This document shows, in pieces, positions 1,738 through 8,946 of a DNA stretch of 41,262 bases. The DNA is taken from positions 1 through 41,262 of the forward strand of contig JAOAPF010000482.1 of assembly GCA_025462755.1 (NCBI GenBank). The letters are read 5' to 3'. The notes under the pieces were generated by a model. It searched no databases and had not been told where the DNA came from. It saw only the letters and a list, made by a program, of their open reading frames with translations. This stretch comes from Edaphobacter sp. GTDB taxonomy: Bacteria > Acidobacteriota > Terriglobia > Terriglobales > Acidobacteriaceae. Both the position numbers and the translations under genes were made by a program. Every line of letters begins with the position of its first letter. Position 1 is the stretch's first letter.

Positions 1738-2982
1738 ATGCAGATTGATGAGACAGCGAAGATCGTGGGGTTGCCGAAGGGGTTTGTCTGGGGCGCGGTG
1801 AAGGCGGGGATCAAAGCTAGCGGCAAGCTGGATCTGGCGGCTGCTGTTGCGGCCAAGGGCACGAAAGGCGCGGCGATGTTTACGAAGAACCAGGTTGTCG
1901 CGGCGCCGGTGACGGTAGGGCGGAGGCACCTGACGGCTACAGGCGGGCGCGTGGCTGCGGTGCTGGTGAATGCGGGGAATGCGAACTGCGCGACCGGGCA
2001 GCCGGGGATCGATGCGTGTGTGAAGACGTGTGCGGCGGCGGCGCAGAGCTTTGGCTGCATCTTTGATGAGGTGTTCCCTTCCTCGACCGGGATTATCGGC
2101 GTGCCATTTCCCAGTGACAAGGTGATTGCTGCACTGCCTGAGCTGAAGGCTGGGCTTGGAGATACGCCGGCGCATGCGGAGATGTTTGCGCGGGCGATCA
2201 TGACGACCGATACGAAGATGAAGGTAGCTCAGGCGGCGGTGGATATTGAAGGAGTGCTGGGGGAGAAGCTTCAGGTGGTGCGGATATGGGGCGCGGCCAA
2301 GGGTGCGGGTATGATTCATCCGCAGCTTGGGCCTCCGCATGCCACGATGCTGGTGTATCTGTTTACCGATGTGGTGGCGGGGAGCGAGGAGTTGGGCGAC
2401 TTGCTGGGGCCGGCGGTGGAGAGGAGTTTTAATTCTATCTCGATCGATGGGGATACTTCGACGAACGATACGGTGTTGCTGCTCGCGAGTGGGGGGAGCG
2501 GGGTGAAGCTGAATGCGCGGAGCGGCGAGGCATTTGCGGAGGCGCTGCGGGCGGTTTGCGGGTCGCTGGCGTATCAGATTGTCGATGATGGCGAGGGGGT
2601 AGGGCATGTGGTAACGCTGCATGTGACCGGAGCGCGGACGGAGGCGGAGGCGAAGCAGGTGGCGAAGTCAATTGCGCATTCGCCGTTGTGCAAGACGGCC
2701 TGGTCTAGTGGGGACCCGAACTGGGGAAGATTGCTGGCGGCGGCTGGGTATAGCGGGGTGGCGTTTGATCCTGCGCTGGTGAATATTGCGATTGGAGAGC
2801 AGCCGGTGTTTGAGCTTGGGTTGCGGTCGCCTTCGTTTGATGAGGCGGCGGCGCATGCTGCGATGATGGCGCGGGATTACACGATTACGCTGGATCTTGG
2901 GCTGGGTAGGGCGGAGTGTCGATTTCTTACCTGCGATTTGACGGAAGAGTATGTGCGGATTAATGCGGCTTATTCGACTTAG
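1738..2982 (+). CDS. argJ: Bifunctional ornithine acetyltransferase / N-acetylglutamate synthase (ArgJ)
   Basis: ArgJ transfers acetyl from N-acetylornithine to glutamate in the cyclic arginine pathway, and some members also use acetyl-CoA. The precursor cleaves itself into alpha and beta chains, and the new N-terminal Thr of the beta chain is the nucleophile. Here the cleavage site is the Ala-Thr in HATML, with Thr203. The protein is 414 residues, close to the family norm. Supporting blocks are AAMFTKN (about 45), VNAGNANCATG (about 77-87), SSTGIIG (about 119), KGAGMI (about 189), GDTSTNDT (about 239-246) and DPNWGR (about 328). The stretch between GMIHP and ATML is about four residues longer than the common form (see findings). 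No other arg gene is nearby. An AAAGG just upstream of the ATG supports this start. Confidence 0.95.
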   Translation: MQIDETAKIVGLPKGFVWGAVKAGIKASGKLDLAAAVAAKGTKGAAMFTKNQVVAAPVTVGRRHLTATGGRVAAVLVNAGNANCATGQPGIDACVKTCAAAAQSFGCIFDEVFPSSTGIIGVPFPSDKVIAALPELKAGLGDTPAHAEMFARAIMTTDTKMKVAQAAVDIEGVLGEKLQVVRIWGAAKGAGMIHPQLGPPHATMLVYLFTDVVAGSEELGDLLGPAVERSFNSISIDGDTSTNDTVLLLASGGSGVKLNARSGEAFAEALRAVCGSLAYQIVDDGEGVGHVVTLHVTGARTEAEAKQVAKSIAHSPLCKTAWSSGDPNWGRLLAAAGYSGVAFDPALVNIAIGEQPVFELGLRSPSFDEAAAHAAMMARDYTITLDLGLGRAECRFLTCDLTEEYVRINAAYST

Positions 2983-3145: not shown

Positions 3146-3161
3146 CTTATATCGTTATAAG
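3146..3161. promoter_or_regulatory. Operator-like palindrome upstream of aceE
   Basis: CTTATA-TCGT-TATAAG is a perfect 6-base inverted repeat with a 4-base centre, ending 68 bases before the preferred aceE start at 3230. Its A+T-rich arms stand out from the G+C-rich surroundings. It does not match the E. coli PdhR operator. It may bind a dimeric regulator or overlap a promoter. No regulator is encoded next to it. Confidence 0.35.
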
Positions 3162-3229
3162 TGCGATCGATGGCGCTGCCCGGTGGTGATCCTGCAGCGA
3201 TCTCTGGAACTGGAGTATTGACGAAGATT

Positions 3230-5908
3230 ATGACGACGAAACTGGATGAAGCGGCCAAGCAGGACTTCAAAGCTGAGGTATCGGAGTGGATTGAGGCGTT
3301 TGACGACGTCGTTGCACACGACTGGGAGCAGGGCGCGGAGCTACTGACTGCGTTGCGACGGCGGGCGCGTGAGGCGGGGGTACCGACTCCAAGCGATCTG
3401 ACAACGCCGTATCAGAATACGATTCCGAAGCACGATGAGGTGCCGTATCCGGGCGATAGGAAGCTGGAGAAACGAGTGGAGTCGCTGCTGCGCTGGAATG
3501 CGATGGCAATGGTGCATGGGCAGAACAAGAAAGATCCGGGGATTGGCGGGCACATCTCGACGTACTCGTCGCTGGCTACGCTGCTGGAGGTTGGGTTCAA
3601 TCATTTCTTCAGGGCGAAATATCCCGGAGCTGACGGACAGGATCAGCCAGGAGATTTTATTTACTTCCAGGGGCATGCTTCGCCAGGGGTGTATGCGCGG
3701 GCTTATCTGGAGGGGCGGTTTGATGAAGACCGGCTGAAGAACTTTCGCCATGAGCTGCGGGACACCCCGGGACTGTCGTCGTATCCGCACCCTTGGCTGA
3801 TGCCGGATTTCTGGAACTTTCCGACGGTGTCGATGGGGATCGGGCCGTTGAATGCGATCTATCAGGCGCGGTTCATGCGGTACCTGGAGAATCGCGGGCT
3901 GATACCGGCGACGGAGCGCAAGGTGTGGGCGTTCGTTGGCGACGGCGAGACGGACGAAGTCGATTCGCTGGGTGCGATCTCGCTGGGTGCGCGGGAGAAG
4001 CTGGACAACCTCATCTTTGTTGTAAATTGCAATCTTCAAAGACTTGACGGCCCGGTGCGCGGGAACAAGCGGATTATCGACGAGTTAGAAGGTGTCTTCC
4101 GCGGCGCGGGATGGAACGTTATTAAGGTGATCTGGGGCTCGGATTGGGATGCGCTGTTTGAGCGCGACCATACGGGGCTGCTGTTGCGGCGGATGGAGGA
4201 GTGCGTTGATGGCGACTTCCAGACATTCAAGGCGAAGGACGGCGCGTTTCTTCGGAAGCACTTCTTCGGGAAGTACCCGGAGCTGCTGGAGCTGGTGAAG
4301 GACAAGACCGATGACGAGTTGTTGCGGCTGCATCGCGGCGGACATGATCCGGCGAAGATTTACAACGCGTACAAGCGGGCGATGGAGCATAAGGGCGGGC
4401 CGACGGTGATCCTGGCCAAGACGGTGAAGGGTTATGGGATGGGGACGTCGCAGGCTCGCAATGCGACGCATAACGAGAAGAAGCTGACGGATGAGGGTCT
4501 TGCGGCGTTTGTGAAGCAGTTCGATATTCCGATTCCGGAGCAGGCGGCGAAGGATGGGTCGTTCTACCGACCCGCGGCCGATGCGCCGGAGTTGCAGTAC
4601 ATGCAGGAGCGGCGCAGCGAGCTGGGCGGGTATATGCCGAAGCGCGAGGTGAAGAAGCTGGAGTTTACGGCTCCGGCCTTGAGCACCTTTGGCGAGTGGC
4701 TTCGCGGATCGAACAATCGCGCGGTTTCTACCACGATGGGTTTTGTCAGCATTCTGCGGCACCTGATGAAGGATCCTGCGATCGGAAAGCTGATTGTGCC
4801 GATTGTGCCGGATGAGGGGCGCACGTTTGGGTTGGAGTCGGCGATCAAGCAGGTGGGCATCTACGCTCCGGAGGGACAGAAGTATGAGCCGCACGACAAG
4901 GACATGCTGCTGAGCTATCGCGAGGAGCAGGATGGACAGATTCTTGAGGAGGGGATTACCGAGGCAGGGTCGATGGCTTCGTTTACGGCGGCGGGCACGG
5001 CCTATGTGAACTACAAGGTGCCGACGATTCCCTTCTACATGTACTACTCGATGTTCGGATTTCAGCGCATCGGGGATATGGTTTGGGCGTTTGCGGATTC
5101 GCGCGGCAAGGGCTTCCTGATGGGTGGAACTGCTGGACGCACGACAATGCTTGGCGAAGGACTGCAGCATCAGGATGGGCATAGTTTCGTGCTGTCCAGC
5201 ACGGTGCCTACGTGCTTGAGTTACGACCCGGCATATGTCTATGAGCTGGCCGTGGTGGTGCAGGATGGGATTCGCAGGATGTATGAGAACGGCGAGGACA
5301 TCTTCTACTACATCACGATGTACAACGAGGACTATGCCATGCCGGCGATTCCGGAGGGCGTGGAAGAGGGCATTCTGCGCGGGATGTACAAGCTGAAGGC
5401 GGCGGCCGGCGAGGCTACGGTGCAGTTGTTTGGCAGCGGAACGATTTTGAACGAGGTGCTGCGCGCGCAGGAGATTCTGGCTTCGAAGTATGGCGTGCAT
5501 GCCGATGTTTGGAGCGTGACCAGCTATACGGAGTTGCGGCGGGATGCTCTGGCGGTGGAGAGGTGGAACCGGCTGCATCCGGCGGAGAAGGAGAAGGTGC
5601 CGTATCTACTGACGGCACTGGGCGATGCGAAGGGGCCGATTATTGCAGCTAGCGACTACATGAAGTCGATGCCGGATTCGCTTTCTCCCTGGCTGCCTTC
5701 GCGGCTGATCGCGCTGGGGACGGATGGTTTTGGGCGGAGCGATAACCGCGAACATCTGCGGAGCCACTTTGAGGTGAATGCGGAGTCAATCGTGGGAGCT
5801 ACGTTGTCAAAGCTGGCGCGTGAGGGTAAGTTCAAAGCGAAGGCTGCACAGAAGGCGATGGATGAGCTGGGGCTGAATGTGGACGCGGCGGATCCGGCGA
5901 AGACTTAG
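3230..5908 (+). CDS. aceE: Pyruvate dehydrogenase E1 component, homodimeric type
   Basis: AceE is the thiamine-diphosphate-dependent E1 of the pyruvate dehydrogenase complex. It decarboxylates pyruvate and passes the acetyl group to the lipoyl domain of E2. From the ATG at 3230 the protein has 892 residues, near the 887 of E. coli AceE. The frame stays open up to a GTG at 3161, but the extra 23 residues do not look like the family. Seen in sequence: NTPY-like segment TPYQNTIP, GGHISTYSS, FQGHASPGVYARAYLEGR, the ThDP motif starting at FVGDGETDE and ending at VNCNLQRLDGPVRGN, and in the second half the EEGITEAGS and GTAGRTTMLGEGLQHQDGHS blocks. E2 (aceF) and E3 (lpd) are not in the window. A strong intrinsic terminator follows at 5935, so aceE seems to be transcribed alone. 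Confidence 0.96.
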   Translation: MTTKLDEAAKQDFKAEVSEWIEAFDDVVAHDWEQGAELLTALRRRAREAGVPTPSDLTTPYQNTIPKHDEVPYPGDRKLEKRVESLLRWNAMAMVHGQNKKDPGIGGHISTYSSLATLLEVGFNHFFRAKYPGADGQDQPGDFIYFQGHASPGVYARAYLEGRFDEDRLKNFRHELRDTPGLSSYPHPWLMPDFWNFPTVSMGIGPLNAIYQARFMRYLENRGLIPATERKVWAFVGDGETDEVDSLGAISLGAREKLDNLIFVVNCNLQRLDGPVRGNKRIIDELEGVFRGAGWNVIKVIWGSDWDALFERDHTGLLLRRMEECVDGDFQTFKAKDGAFLRKHFFGKYPELLELVKDKTDDELLRLHRGGHDPAKIYNAYKRAMEHKGGPTVILAKTVKGYGMGTSQARNATHNEKKLTDEGLAAFVKQFDIPIPEQAAKDGSFYRPAADAPELQYMQERRSELGGYMPKREVKKLEFTAPALSTFGEWLRGSNNRAVSTTMGFVSILRHLMKDPAIGKLIVPIVPDEGRTFGLESAIKQVGIYAPEGQKYEPHDKDMLLSYREEQDGQILEEGITEAGSMASFTAAGTAYVNYKVPTIPFYMYYSMFGFQRIGDMVWAFADSRGKGFLMGGTAGRTTMLGEGLQHQDGHSFVLSSTVPTCLSYDPAYVYELAVVVQDGIRRMYENGEDIFYYITMYNEDYAMPAIPEGVEEGILRGMYKLKAAAGEATVQLFGSGTILNEVLRAQEILASKYGVHADVWSVTSYTELRRDALAVERWNRLHPAEKEKVPYLLTALGDAKGPIIAASDYMKSMPDSLSPWLPSRLIALGTDGFGRSDNREHLRSHFEVNAESIVGATLSKLAREGKFKAKAAQKAMDELGLNVDAADPAKT

Positions 5909-5934
5909 TTCGATTCGGCGTTCGGGTTGAAGTG

Positions 5935-5968
5935 GAGAGGGTTCCTTTTGGAGGGACCCTCTCTTTTT
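5935..5968 (+). terminator. Intrinsic terminator of aceE
   Basis: An 11-base stem, GAGAGGGTTCC (5935-5945) with GGGACCCTCTC (5953-5963) and one G-U pair, encloses the 7-base loop TTTTGGA. TTTTT (5964-5968) follows at once. This is a textbook rho-independent terminator 26 bases after the aceE stop. Confidence 0.88.
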
Positions 5969-5980
5969 GCAAATGGCAAG

Positions 5981-6910
5981 ATGGAGGGCTGGTTGAGCGA
6001 GACGGGGATGTACGAGAATCCGCTGGTGCCCAATGCGAAGTTGCGGCAGATGTTTGTTGCGATGGCCGAGGCGAGAGTGCTGGATGAGCATGTTGCCGGG
6101 GGGCAGCGGCGGGCCAAAGGGTCTAACGGGGCGAAGAGGATTAAGGGGATTAAAGGGCGCCGGAGGCTGGATTCGATCCGGGGGCAGGAGGCTTGCCGGG
6201 TAAGCACGGCGATTGATCTGGGGCCGGGCGATCTGGTGAGCGACTCGCAGGTGGGGGTGGTGATGGATCTGCTGGCTGGCGCAAAGGTCAGTTCCCTGCT
6301 GAAGCATGTGGCTGAGATTGGCGCTTGGAAAAGTGGTTCCGGGAAAAATGGTTCCGGGAACATTGCTAAGGGAGTGAAGCTGGGTGGAACTTCGGGACGG
6401 CTGCTGCCGTGGGTTGACGATGCCGGCGAGCGGTTGCGAATGGCAATGGGTGCGGCGCTCTCGTTCAAGGCCTTCGGGCGCGCGAATGTGGTGGTCGCTT
6501 ACGTTCGTCATGGGACCCTCGGCGAGGGTGTTTGGCGGAAGGTGCTCGAGCTTGCGGGGAAGCTGGAGCTGCCTTTGATCTTTGTGGTTCTGCCTGCGGG
6601 GAGAGGCGGAAAACGGGATGGGAAGACGAAGCTGAGCGCGAGGACGGCGCGTTGGGGGGTGCCTGGGATTCCTGTCGATGCAGGTGATGCGGTGGCGGTG
6701 TATCGGGTGGCGCAGGAGTCGCTGGGGAGGACTCGGGCTGGAGATGGGCCCGTGGTGATTGAATGTGTGGCTCATGGCGGGAAAGGCGCGACGAGCGATC
6801 CTCTGGTTCAGATGAAGGAGTTTCTGCTCGGCCGCAAGGTGTGCACGAAGGCGTGGCTGGAGAGCGCAGGCAAGGGGTTGCGGAAGAGGATCGCAGCGGC
6901 AAGGCAGTGA
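5981..6910 (+). CDS. E1-alpha-like protein lacking the ThDP-binding motif (probable pseudoenzyme)
   Basis: From the ATG at 5981 this gives 309 residues. The frame is open from 5927, but that start lies before the aceE terminator. The layout resembles the alpha subunit of 2-oxo acid or acetoin dehydrogenase E1: LRQMFVAMAEARVLDE near the N-terminus, GQEA at 68-71 followed by a PGDLVSDS segment, GERLRMAMGAALSFK before the core, and a GEGVWRKVLELAGKLELPLIFVV helix-strand unit. In active enzymes this unit starts with GDG and ends in NN, which hold Mg-ThDP. Here those places read RHG (176-178) and LPA (204-206), and the GGSMH phosphate loop is absent. Lys/Gly-rich inserts occur at about residues 47-62 and 113-125. 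The frame is intact, so it is not a simple pseudogene. No E1-beta gene is present. A regulatory or scaffold role is only a guess. Confidence 0.6.
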   Translation: MEGWLSETGMYENPLVPNAKLRQMFVAMAEARVLDEHVAGGQRRAKGSNGAKRIKGIKGRRRLDSIRGQEACRVSTAIDLGPGDLVSDSQVGVVMDLLAGAKVSSLLKHVAEIGAWKSGSGKNGSGNIAKGVKLGGTSGRLLPWVDDAGERLRMAMGAALSFKAFGRANVVVAYVRHGTLGEGVWRKVLELAGKLELPLIFVVLPAGRGGKRDGKTKLSARTARWGVPGIPVDAGDAVAVYRVAQESLGRTRAGDGPVVIECVAHGGKGATSDPLVQMKEFLLGRKVCTKAWLESAGKGLRKRIAAARQ

Positions 6911-7002
6911 ATCCTTCGACTTAGGGGAGCTTCTTTTGTAACTGCGAGTGGAGGGCTTTCCGCGATTACACTGGAAGCTGCTGTTTAGCTACAGATATTG
7001 AG

Positions 7003-8946
7003 GTGCGAGTGCGGATCAGGGGTTTTCTCTCTTCTGCGGTGCTGATTTTTTGCGCCGCTTCGACTGCTTTTGGGCAGACGCCAACCACTCCTCCTCCACC
7101 CCCATCGGCGCCGGTGCCGACCCCTAGTCCGGCTGATAAGAATCAGCAGTATCCGCCTTACGCGCAGAAGCCGCAGCCACAGCAGCAGACTCAACCACAG
7201 GTGCCTCCGCAGGCCCCGCCTCCGGCTCTTCCAGCGCCGGAGGAGAAAGGGCCGCCGGTGGTGCCTCCGGCGCAGCCGACTCCGGAGGCTCCGTTCGTGG
7301 GCTATGGGCCGTATGCGCCTAAGGCAACGAGGCCCCCGATCGACTGGCTGGGTTCGGTCTACCTCCCGGTGGACAGCTGGATGTACCCGGCGTTGACGAG
7401 GCTGTACGGGATGGGATTCGTCGACTCGATGTTTCTGGGGATGCGTCCTTACACGCGGCGGAGTGTGCTGCACATGCTGTTGAAGTCGAAGGATGCGATT
7501 ATCAACAGCGACAATGAGCAGGCGCAGGACATTTTCGCGAAGATGCTGAGGGAGTTGAGCGCGGAGGTTCCGAGCGGCAATGTTGACCGCGGTCTGGTGT
7601 ATGGGCTGGACTCGTCGTATACGCGGTTTCTCGGGATCGGCGGCCCGGTTCTGACAGATAGCTATCATTTGGGACAGACGATCAACAACGACTATGGACG
7701 GCCGTACCAGACGGGCTTCAACGCGATTGCAGGAGCGTCGACAACCGAGGAGTGGGGACCGTTTTCGTTGTATGTGAGGGGAGAGTACCAGCATGCTCCG
7801 TCGGCAACCGGATACTCGGTTCCGCTGGCGACCCAACTATCGCTGATTGACGAGATCGAATACACCGGTCCCCAGGCTACGATTCCTGTGGGGCCGATTG
7901 CGGCGCAAAATCCGTTTCGGCTGGTGGAGGCTTACGCTTCTTTTCATCTGCTGGGGCACGAGATCTCGGGCGGCAAGAGCGACGCATGGCTTGGACCGGG
8001 AACGGGCTCTTCGATGGCGTGGTCGAATAACGCAGAGAATATCTATTCGCTCCGCATCAATCGCGTGGAGCCGTTGTATATCCCTTTCGTGTCGAAGGTG
8101 AGTGGGCCGCTTCGGTATGACTTTTTTGTTGGCAGCCTGAAGGGGCATAACGTTCCGAGATCACCGTGGGTTCATGCCGAGATATTTTCTTTCCGACCGA
8201 CGGATAACTTTGAGTTTGCCTTTGAGCGAACCGTCATCTGGGGCGGTGAGGGCCATGTTCCGGTTACGCTGCACTCATTTTTCCGCAGCTTCTTCAGTGT
8301 GAGCGATACGGTTGGCGATGAGAAGACCTCCCGTGAGGATCCTGGCGCGCGATTCAGCGATTTCAGTTTCTCCTACCGGCTGCCTAAGATGCGCAAGTAC
8401 GTGACGTTCTACGCGGATGCGATTTCGCATGATGATGTGACGCCGATCAGCGCACCGCGGCGAGCGTCTTACCGGACCGGGCTGTTTGTCTCACAGATTC
8501 CCAAGCTGAACCGTCTGGATTTCAGAGTTGAGGCCGTGTCGACGGACCCGGGAGTTGGGCCAGCCCACAACGGCCAGTTTGCTTATTGGGAGATTATTCA
8601 GCGGCAGGGGTACACGAACAAGGGCAACATCATGGCTGACTGGATTGGCCGCGAGGCCAAGGGCGGTCAGGCGTGGTTGACGTATCACCTGTCGGGCAAC
8701 GAGTGGGTTCAACTGGAGTATCTGAATAAGAAGACGCCGTTCAACTTCATTCCCGGAGGAACGACGCAGAACCAGTTCACGGGCAGCGTGGTGAAGCGGT
8801 TTGGCAAAGATGTCCAGCTGAAGGCGTGGGTGCAATACGAAGGATGGAAGGCGCCGATCTACAAGGATGGGCTGCAGAAAAATACTTCGGTAGCGGTGGA
8901 TCTGACGTGGTATCCGAAGTTGCACAACTATCCAGAAATCCGTTAG
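7003..8946 (+). CDS. Wzi-family capsule assembly outer-membrane protein
   Basis: This 647-residue protein has a signal peptide (about 1-24, ending AFG-Q), then about 75 residues rich in Pro and Gln that probably span the periplasm flexibly, then a Wzi-like region. The core begins SVYLPVDSWMYPALTRLYGMG (segments no longer than the family signature) and continues in alternating aromatic strands such as GPFSLYVRGEYQH, YDFFVGSLKGH and WVQLEYLNKK, as in an outer-membrane beta-barrel. E. coli Wzi binds group 1 capsule at the cell surface, and many bacteria with Wza/Wzc systems carry homologues. Here it sits at the edge of the EPS locus (uxs, ugd, Wzc, Wza). The start is GTG, with a second in-frame GTG 6 bases on. 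The start is uncertain by a few codons. The Pro-rich N-terminal arm is longer than in E. coli Wzi. Confidence 0.8.
   Translation: MRVRIRGFLSSAVLIFCAASTAFGQTPTTPPPPPSAPVPTPSPADKNQQYPPYAQKPQPQQQTQPQVPPQAPPPALPAPEEKGPPVVPPAQPTPEAPFVGYGPYAPKATRPPIDWLGSVYLPVDSWMYPALTRLYGMGFVDSMFLGMRPYTRRSVLHMLLKSKDAIINSDNEQAQDIFAKMLRELSAEVPSGNVDRGLVYGLDSSYTRFLGIGGPVLTDSYHLGQTINNDYGRPYQTGFNAIAGASTTEEWGPFSLYVRGEYQHAPSATGYSVPLATQLSLIDEIEYTGPQATIPVGPIAAQNPFRLVEAYASFHLLGHEISGGKSDAWLGPGTGSSMAWSNNAENIYSLRINRVEPLYIPFVSKVSGPLRYDFFVGSLKGHNVPRSPWVHAEIFSFRPTDNFEFAFERTVIWGGEGHVPVTLHSFFRSFFSVSDTVGDEKTSREDPGARFSDFSFSYRLPKMRKYVTFYADAISHDDVTPISAPRRASYRTGLFVSQIPKLNRLDFRVEAVSTDPGVGPAHNGQFAYWEIIQRQGYTNKGNIMADWIGREAKGGQAWLTYHLSGNEWVQLEYLNKKTPFNFIPGGTTQNQFTGSVVKRFGKDVQLKAWVQYEGWKAPIYKDGLQKNTSVAVDLTWYPKLHNYPEIR

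Follow-up and report, generated by a model that had tools for sequence, protein, structure and literature searches.

What does a gene do that resembles the E1-alpha subunit of pyruvate dehydrogenase (PDH), lacks the ThDP motif and stands directly 3' of aceE? This question is raised by the window, i.e. the whole stretch of 41,262 nucleotides that was analysed. The frame of this gene, referred to below as X, is uninterrupted over 309 codons at 5981–6910, as the earlier note had read it. Its start is probably to be moved from ATG 5981 (309 aa) to TTG 5993 (305 aa), because GGAGG precedes TTG 5993 and no Shine-Dalgarno was found at the distance tested from ATG 5981. The same TTG and GGAGG occur in the related loci L031–L036. 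The locus is organised as follows.

1738–2982, plus strand: argJ, left border of the ancestral slot (neighbourhood comparison, gene name checked).
3161–5908, plus strand: aceE, homodimeric pyruvate dehydrogenase E1 (1300 bits to TIGR00759, cut-off 860; start approximate).
5934–5968, plus strand: hairpin and T-run between aceE and X (fold, conservation of the arm core).
5983–5987, plus strand: probable Shine-Dalgarno GGAGG, 5 nt 5' of TTG 5993, also in L031–L036.
5993–6910, plus strand: gene X, an orphan, motif-less E1-alpha; 305 aa from TTG 5993, 309 aa if ATG 5981.
7003–8946, plus strand: Wzi-like capsule assembly gene, right border of the slot (neighbourhood comparison, gene name checked).

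The only Pfam match of X is PF00676 E1_dh (48.5 bits, E 7.7e-13), above the gathering score of 22. With TIGR03181, the profile of PDH E1-alpha, X reaches 67.9 bits against an equivalog cut-off of 411 and is thus E1-alpha-like yet far from a regular member of the family. This cut-off is strict for the group, since the intact locus L111 itself gives only 307 bits. The TIGR03181 scores fall in step, from L111 (307 bits) to L109 (273), L122 (96) and the X of the window (68). Profile comparison, a check proposed in the earlier note, thus places X on the E1-alpha side. The AlphaFold model of X, built from 38 orthologues, has a pLDDT of 88.4 and a pTM of 0.88. All of the best 50 Foldseek rows are E1-alpha with a probability of 1.00; with VIA-align the first 36 rows are E1-alpha, and single-chain 2-oxo-acid E1 enzymes come next, at Z 21 or lower. 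The best solved match is the E1-alpha 1w88_A (Z 26.3, rmsd 2.7 over 260 residues). The helix-strand layout of E1-alpha that the earlier note had recognised is therefore found again in the predicted fold, and a match to a different fold, which that note had named as a refutation, is absent from these best rows.

Within X the retained and the altered elements are the following.

6110–6166, plus strand: Gly/Lys-rich stretch, with 12 residues absent from the nearest relative L031; a low-confidence part of the model.
6182–6193, plus strand: GQEA, retained E1-alpha signature, residues 64–67 in TTG numbering.
6344–6391, plus strand: second Gly/Ser/Lys-rich stretch, also a low-confidence part of the model.
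6506–6514, plus strand: RHG where the ThDP motif has G-D/E-G (motif alignment).
6593–6598, plus strand: PA where the ThDP motif has NN (motif alignment).
6674–6736, plus strand: retained core VDAGDAVAVYRVAQESLGRTR, residues 228–248 of X.

These elements agree with the first reading of the gene: the GQEA region is kept, GDG...NN is replaced by RHG...LPA (LPA being PA plus the preceding residue), the phosphate loop is gone and Gly/Lys-rich inserts are present, both at the least confident spots of the model. In the place of the YRWYGHS loop of most intact relatives the window has AHGGKG. The loop histidine of E1-alpha corresponds to H271-alpha in PMC2663715, and we matched it to the YRWYGHS loop by our own alignment.

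Across 118 loci compared, the ThDP motif is present in 27 and missing in 91; the latter will be referred to as "orphans", a class defined by this very motif test. The motif was checked on fixed model columns, since a pattern with E/Q at one position misses even intact motifs, this group having another residue there; the row of a fused E1, off register by one column, was excluded from all counts. In a comparison made with L109 excluded, 45 columns conserved at 90% or more in the intact forms drop below 60% in both orphan sets. The ThDP motif is among these columns, as are the loop, the HRD histidine and the HE pair in the tunnel helix. The orphans have likewise not kept the tunnel glutamate or the ligands of metal and diphosphate, and the active-site loop and its histidine are replaced or deleted in the alignment of the window X and the orphans. 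The C-terminal tail of intact E1-alpha is missing in the aligned orphans, L109 excepted. X itself has neither HRD histidine nor loop histidine, neither GDG..NN nor phosphate loop.

What remains is a strand-helix element, VD..D..A.YRV..E...R.R. V228, D229, D232, R238, E242 and R248 are identical in 91/91 orphans, an invariance that is partly ascertainment, as the orphans outside the genus of the window were found by a core-weighted profile; this bias is smaller within the genus, where all 36 relatives have an orthologue. R238 is present in 17 of the 27 intact forms and in all 91 orphans. L122, a divergent orphan in an argJ-X-Wzi locus, has a predicted order of helices and strands similar to that of X (pLDDT 86.7).

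We traced the origin of X by searching 150 genomes of the family with a profile and by reading the neighbourhoods fetched around the matches. X is not universal in the family: in five of the 150 genomes the profile found nothing, and many others have as their best match what resembles an ordinary, longer E1-alpha. Four arrangements of the slot that begins with argJ occur: argJ-E1alpha-E1beta, its motif intact (L111, L112, L113, L115, L116 and L184, in other genera); argJ-X-Wzi without an adjoining aceE; argJ-X-aceE-Wzi; and argJ-aceE-X-Wzi, as in the window. E1-beta adjoins 26 of the 27 intact loci, the exception (L172) lying at a contig end. Beside orphans it was found in 0/53 cases among L108–L187, and no E1-beta match appeared in the 37 stretches L031–L067. 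None of the 37 genomes of the window genus has a close E1-beta: the best matches have at most 50% identity and are mostly fused E1. On this comparison of gene order and motif, X is a retired pdhA whose pdhB was lost, because intact alpha-beta pairs occupy the same argJ slot and the state of the motif tracks E1-beta. In six genomes of the family we observed a motif-less X (L125 in G075, L136 in G148, L139 in G138, L138 in G163, L185 in G188 and L186 in G157) and, elsewhere in the genome, an intact E1 alpha-beta pair (L177, L178, L173, L180, L181 and L182 for these same genomes).

The number of orphanings differs between trees. The X tree (95 rows, trait columns omitted) requires three changes, all forced by starred branches; a 46-row tree requires five, two of them forced. 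The ArgJ tree (56 rows, midpoint root) requires two changes, of which one is forced, and places the intact group within the orphans. The AU test does not reject a single orphan clade (p 0.166 with L109, 0.305 without L109), and long branches meet there. One locus, L109 of G122, looks like a recently orphaned alpha: it has DEG..NN and the loop SRGHGHA, no adjoining E1-beta, and an aceE elsewhere in the genome. Of its congeners, G173 (L111) has an intact alpha-beta pair and aceE, and G196 (L184) an intact pair and no aceE. The genus of L109, L111 and L184 offers a natural test case for the replacement of E1 alpha-beta by AceE.

We then considered whether X is conserved. Among the 60 relatives searched, an X orthologue is present in 36/36 sampled congeners, always with an open frame; the matches in relatives of other families (18 of 24) are all weak (E 2.4e-16 or worse), i.e. 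at the level of a generic E1-alpha. A search with the single X protein returned one locus, in Acidobacteriaceae bacterium KBS 89, the nearest named relative. The 36 congeners and KBS 89 make up the 37-locus set L031–L067. All 37 frames are open over 243–362 aa without internal stop, the stops flagged within matches at G017 and G360 being terminal stop codons. The gene aceE lies 5' of X in all 37 loci, the gap being at most 260 nt in 36 of them and some 1.5 kb in L055. Of the 37 stretches, 26 contain argJ and 34 the Wzi-like gene. Identity to the window copy ranges over 32–74% for X and 72–91% for aceE.

The dN/dS, by the simple Nei-Gojobori method, lies between 0.097 and 0.271 in 48/48 close orphan pairs; these pairs overlap and are not independent, and their synonymous sites are often near saturation. 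Between the window and KBS 89 it is 0.171 for X and 0.078 for aceE, and nine same-pair values for aceE range from 0.027 to 0.122 (pair L041–L044 left out). Amino-acid sites change about 3 to 8 times faster in X than in aceE. For pairs from other genera, compared over stop-to-stop frames with non-coding ends, dN/dS is 0.21–0.28 in six, 0.39 for L114–L118 and 0.49 for L121–L132. The freshly orphaned gene of G122 compared with the intact gene of G173, a pair outside the 48, gives 0.087. A neutral relic would have a dN/dS near 1 and the observed values are far below; as judged from these substitution patterns, X is under purifying selection and not decaying. The check suggested in the earlier note, conservation with neighbours together with dN/dS, thus speaks for function: aceE adjoins X across the genus and dN/dS is well below 1. 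The same note had linked orthologues with an intact motif to decay of this copy. Such orthologues do exist, in the same argJ slot of other genera, but the inference of decay fails because the intact forms occur with E1-beta whereas the motif-less form is widespread and selected. Its main proposal, a retained non-catalytic derivative of E1-alpha, is in keeping with the motif loss, the conserved neighbours and the purifying selection.

Is X then linked to AceE? In the aceE-X order, that of the window genus, L056, L057 and L060 have a start candidate of X that overlaps the stop of aceE. In the X-aceE order L154 has a 4-nt overlap of the two genes, and 27, 32 and 39 nt separate them in L138, L141 and L146; the nearest candidates in L185–L187 are 51–67 nt away, and in L110 more than 700 nt. 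Such arrangements suggest that joint expression of X and aceE is under selection, and it is because aceE adjoins X in two opposite orders, sometimes overlapping, that we prefer to read X as a non-catalytic accessory protein of PDH. The proposal of the earlier note that X binds or regulates PDH is, on gene neighbourhood, plausible. AceE as the sole partner is doubtful, because eight X-bearing genomes have no aceE (best TIGR00759 matches at most 49 bits) and aceE is outside the fetched stretch in 35/53 orphans of L108–L187, many of these genomes carrying it elsewhere. The X locus was read in six of the eight (G068, G143, G183, G202, G181 and G161), and X is known by profile match only in G062 and G141; completeness is 79–84% for G062, G141 and G181 and 98–100% for the other five. 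A common partner such as E2, E3 or a fused E1, or an independent role for X, is possible.

The hairpin followed by a T-run that had been noticed between aceE and X is real. The case for it rests on its strong fold and on conservation, because a simple terminator scan is near shuffle level (2 sites against 1.4 +/- 1.4 in shuffles). The core of one arm, GAGGGTTCC or a close form, is present in 22/38 junctions, the others having unrelated hairpins or none. The strict palindrome GAGGGTTCC-(3-8)-GGAACCCTC occurs once per genome (both strands) in 12 of the 37 genomes of the genus, in all 12 at the aceE-X junction, and the reversed control gave zero matches; the stem of the window is a variant that does not match the strict form. 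The stem core GAGGGTTCC / GGAACCCTC, seen at 5934–5968 of the window and in the junctions of L031–L050 and L052, is nearly locus-specific. In L041, L043, L044, L049 and L050, read by eye, the stem is kept and the T-run is gone. Because the stem is nearly locus-specific and persists where the T-run is lost, it may act in regulation or bind a protein, and so be more than a plain terminator. The earlier note held that X needs its own promoter or read-through. A scan of 5600–7200 found no sigma-70-like promoter, so that read-through into X would be at least as likely as a promoter of its own.

In the genome of the window (88% complete) we looked for an E1-beta elsewhere. The candidate, a stand-alone Transket_pyr protein, was rejected as one half of a transketolase-type enzyme whose N-terminal half adjoins it. 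PF00676 has three matches in this genome: X, the alpha half of a fused E1 (C338, 735 aa) and a short match (C497) within a 966-aa frame that also holds Transket_pyr. At L073 (G000:C471, 530–2436) two adjoining genes resemble the two halves of a transketolase-type enzyme, the N-terminal one (first) assigned by eye and the C-terminal one by NCBIfam match, and a frame labelled by eye as enolase-superfamily-like lies 3' of them. L074 (G000:C338, 1045–3252, minus strand) is the fused E1-alpha/E1-beta of 735 aa, with a GEG..DNG motif; long frames like it are found in many genomes of the family.

With the origin, motif loss, predicted fold, purifying selection and neighbourhood of X established, X probably does a new, non-catalytic job, as judged from its evolution, because partner and catalytic centre are lost yet selection preserves the gene. 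The ancestral argJ-pdhA-pdhB slot lost pdhB, and AceE presumably now supplies the PDH activity in most lineages. The leftover alpha shed its ThDP/Mg motif, HRD histidine and C-terminal tail, as well as the loop with its histidine, but kept the domain fold and the single element VD..D..A.YRV..E...R.R. X may now act with AceE (in assembly, in stability or in the control of activity), and its amount would be set by how much aceE transcript reads through the junction hairpin. We regard it as evenly balanced whether X, a retired E1-alpha, now serves a 2-oxo-acid dehydrogenase complex as a non-catalytic subunit that binds other proteins; in the lineage of the window AceE would be the most likely partner. 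The eight genomes with X and no aceE, the faster change of X than of aceE, the lack of any match in some genomes of the family and the six genomes that also have a separate intact alpha-beta pair count against this reading. A wider claim would be tentative: that the PDH of Acidobacteriaceae has an additional undescribed non-catalytic subunit, a former E1-alpha kept after the loss of E1-beta and the takeover by AceE as a regulator or assembly factor, binding via the invariant helix VD..D..A.YRV..E...R, the conversion apparently taking place afresh in at least one genus (L109 beside L111 and L184).

Retention of X in genomes devoid of aceE, the position of aceE elsewhere in many orphans and the divergence of ThDP pocket, tunnel-glutamate helix and C-terminal tail altogether would also fit a protein that has left PDH, its fold recruited elsewhere (e.g. 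as a homomeric scaffold or an allosteric metabolite binder) and its place near aceE being only a mark of the old pdhA slot. Two opposite aceE orders, overlapping or tight, are hard to explain by a meaningless neighbourhood, and we consider this departure from PDH possible though somewhat doubtful. That X is a slowly decaying, functionless pdhA relic is unlikely: its faster evolution relative to aceE, its absence from some genomes of the family, the apparently recent orphaning of L109 and the values of 0.39 and 0.49 in pairs of other genera, whose frames include non-coding ends, go in this direction, but dN/dS is far below 1 in all 48 close orphan pairs, all 37 frames are open and six residues are invariant. 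Least probable is a still catalytic alpha with a borrowed beta subunit or another cofactor. The retained fold speaks for it, but X has not kept the tunnel glutamate, the histidines of HRD and the loop or the ligands of metal and diphosphate, the genus has no close E1-beta, and the stand-alone Transket_pyr protein belongs to a transketolase-type pair.

Compared with known systems, X shares with PDH E1-alpha (TIGR03181 / PF00676; 1w85, 1w88) the fold over residues 11–305, GQEA, the VDG.D..A.Y helix and the gene slot, and differs from it by the absence of GDG..NN, of the HRD and loop histidines, of the C-terminal tail and of an E1-beta partner. By these comparisons X is E1-alpha-derived, but it should not be classed among the working PDH E1-alpha subunits. 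AceE (TIGR00759), its neighbour, is a homodimeric E1 and the presumed functional replacement of E1 alpha-beta; it is a complete single-chain E1, whereas X has no TIGR00759 match (threshold E 10). The nearest works-like analogy is E3BP/PX of eukaryotic PDH. E3BP is derived from E2 and retains E3 in the eukaryotic complex. Its gene, that of a PDH component with changed function and a kept binding role, is a case of gene neofunctionalization in PMC10156792; X is bacterial and comes from E1-alpha, and its binding is putative. None of the papers listed by our literature search describes an E1-alpha-derived non-catalytic protein in Acidobacteria. The fold and ancestry of X are thus known, and its conserved, non-catalytic, partnerless form is undescribed as far as the literature was searched.

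At one argJ slot in one bacterial family, the evolution of a working enzyme subunit into a conserved non-enzyme can therefore be followed through intact, freshly orphaned and long-retired forms that exist next to one another. Motif-less E1-alpha genes can be expected to be annotated as working PDH subunits and so to mislead metabolic models. Should X bind PDH, these bacteria would have an unrecognised component in a central metabolic complex; if it does not, the E1-alpha fold would have been recruited for something else.
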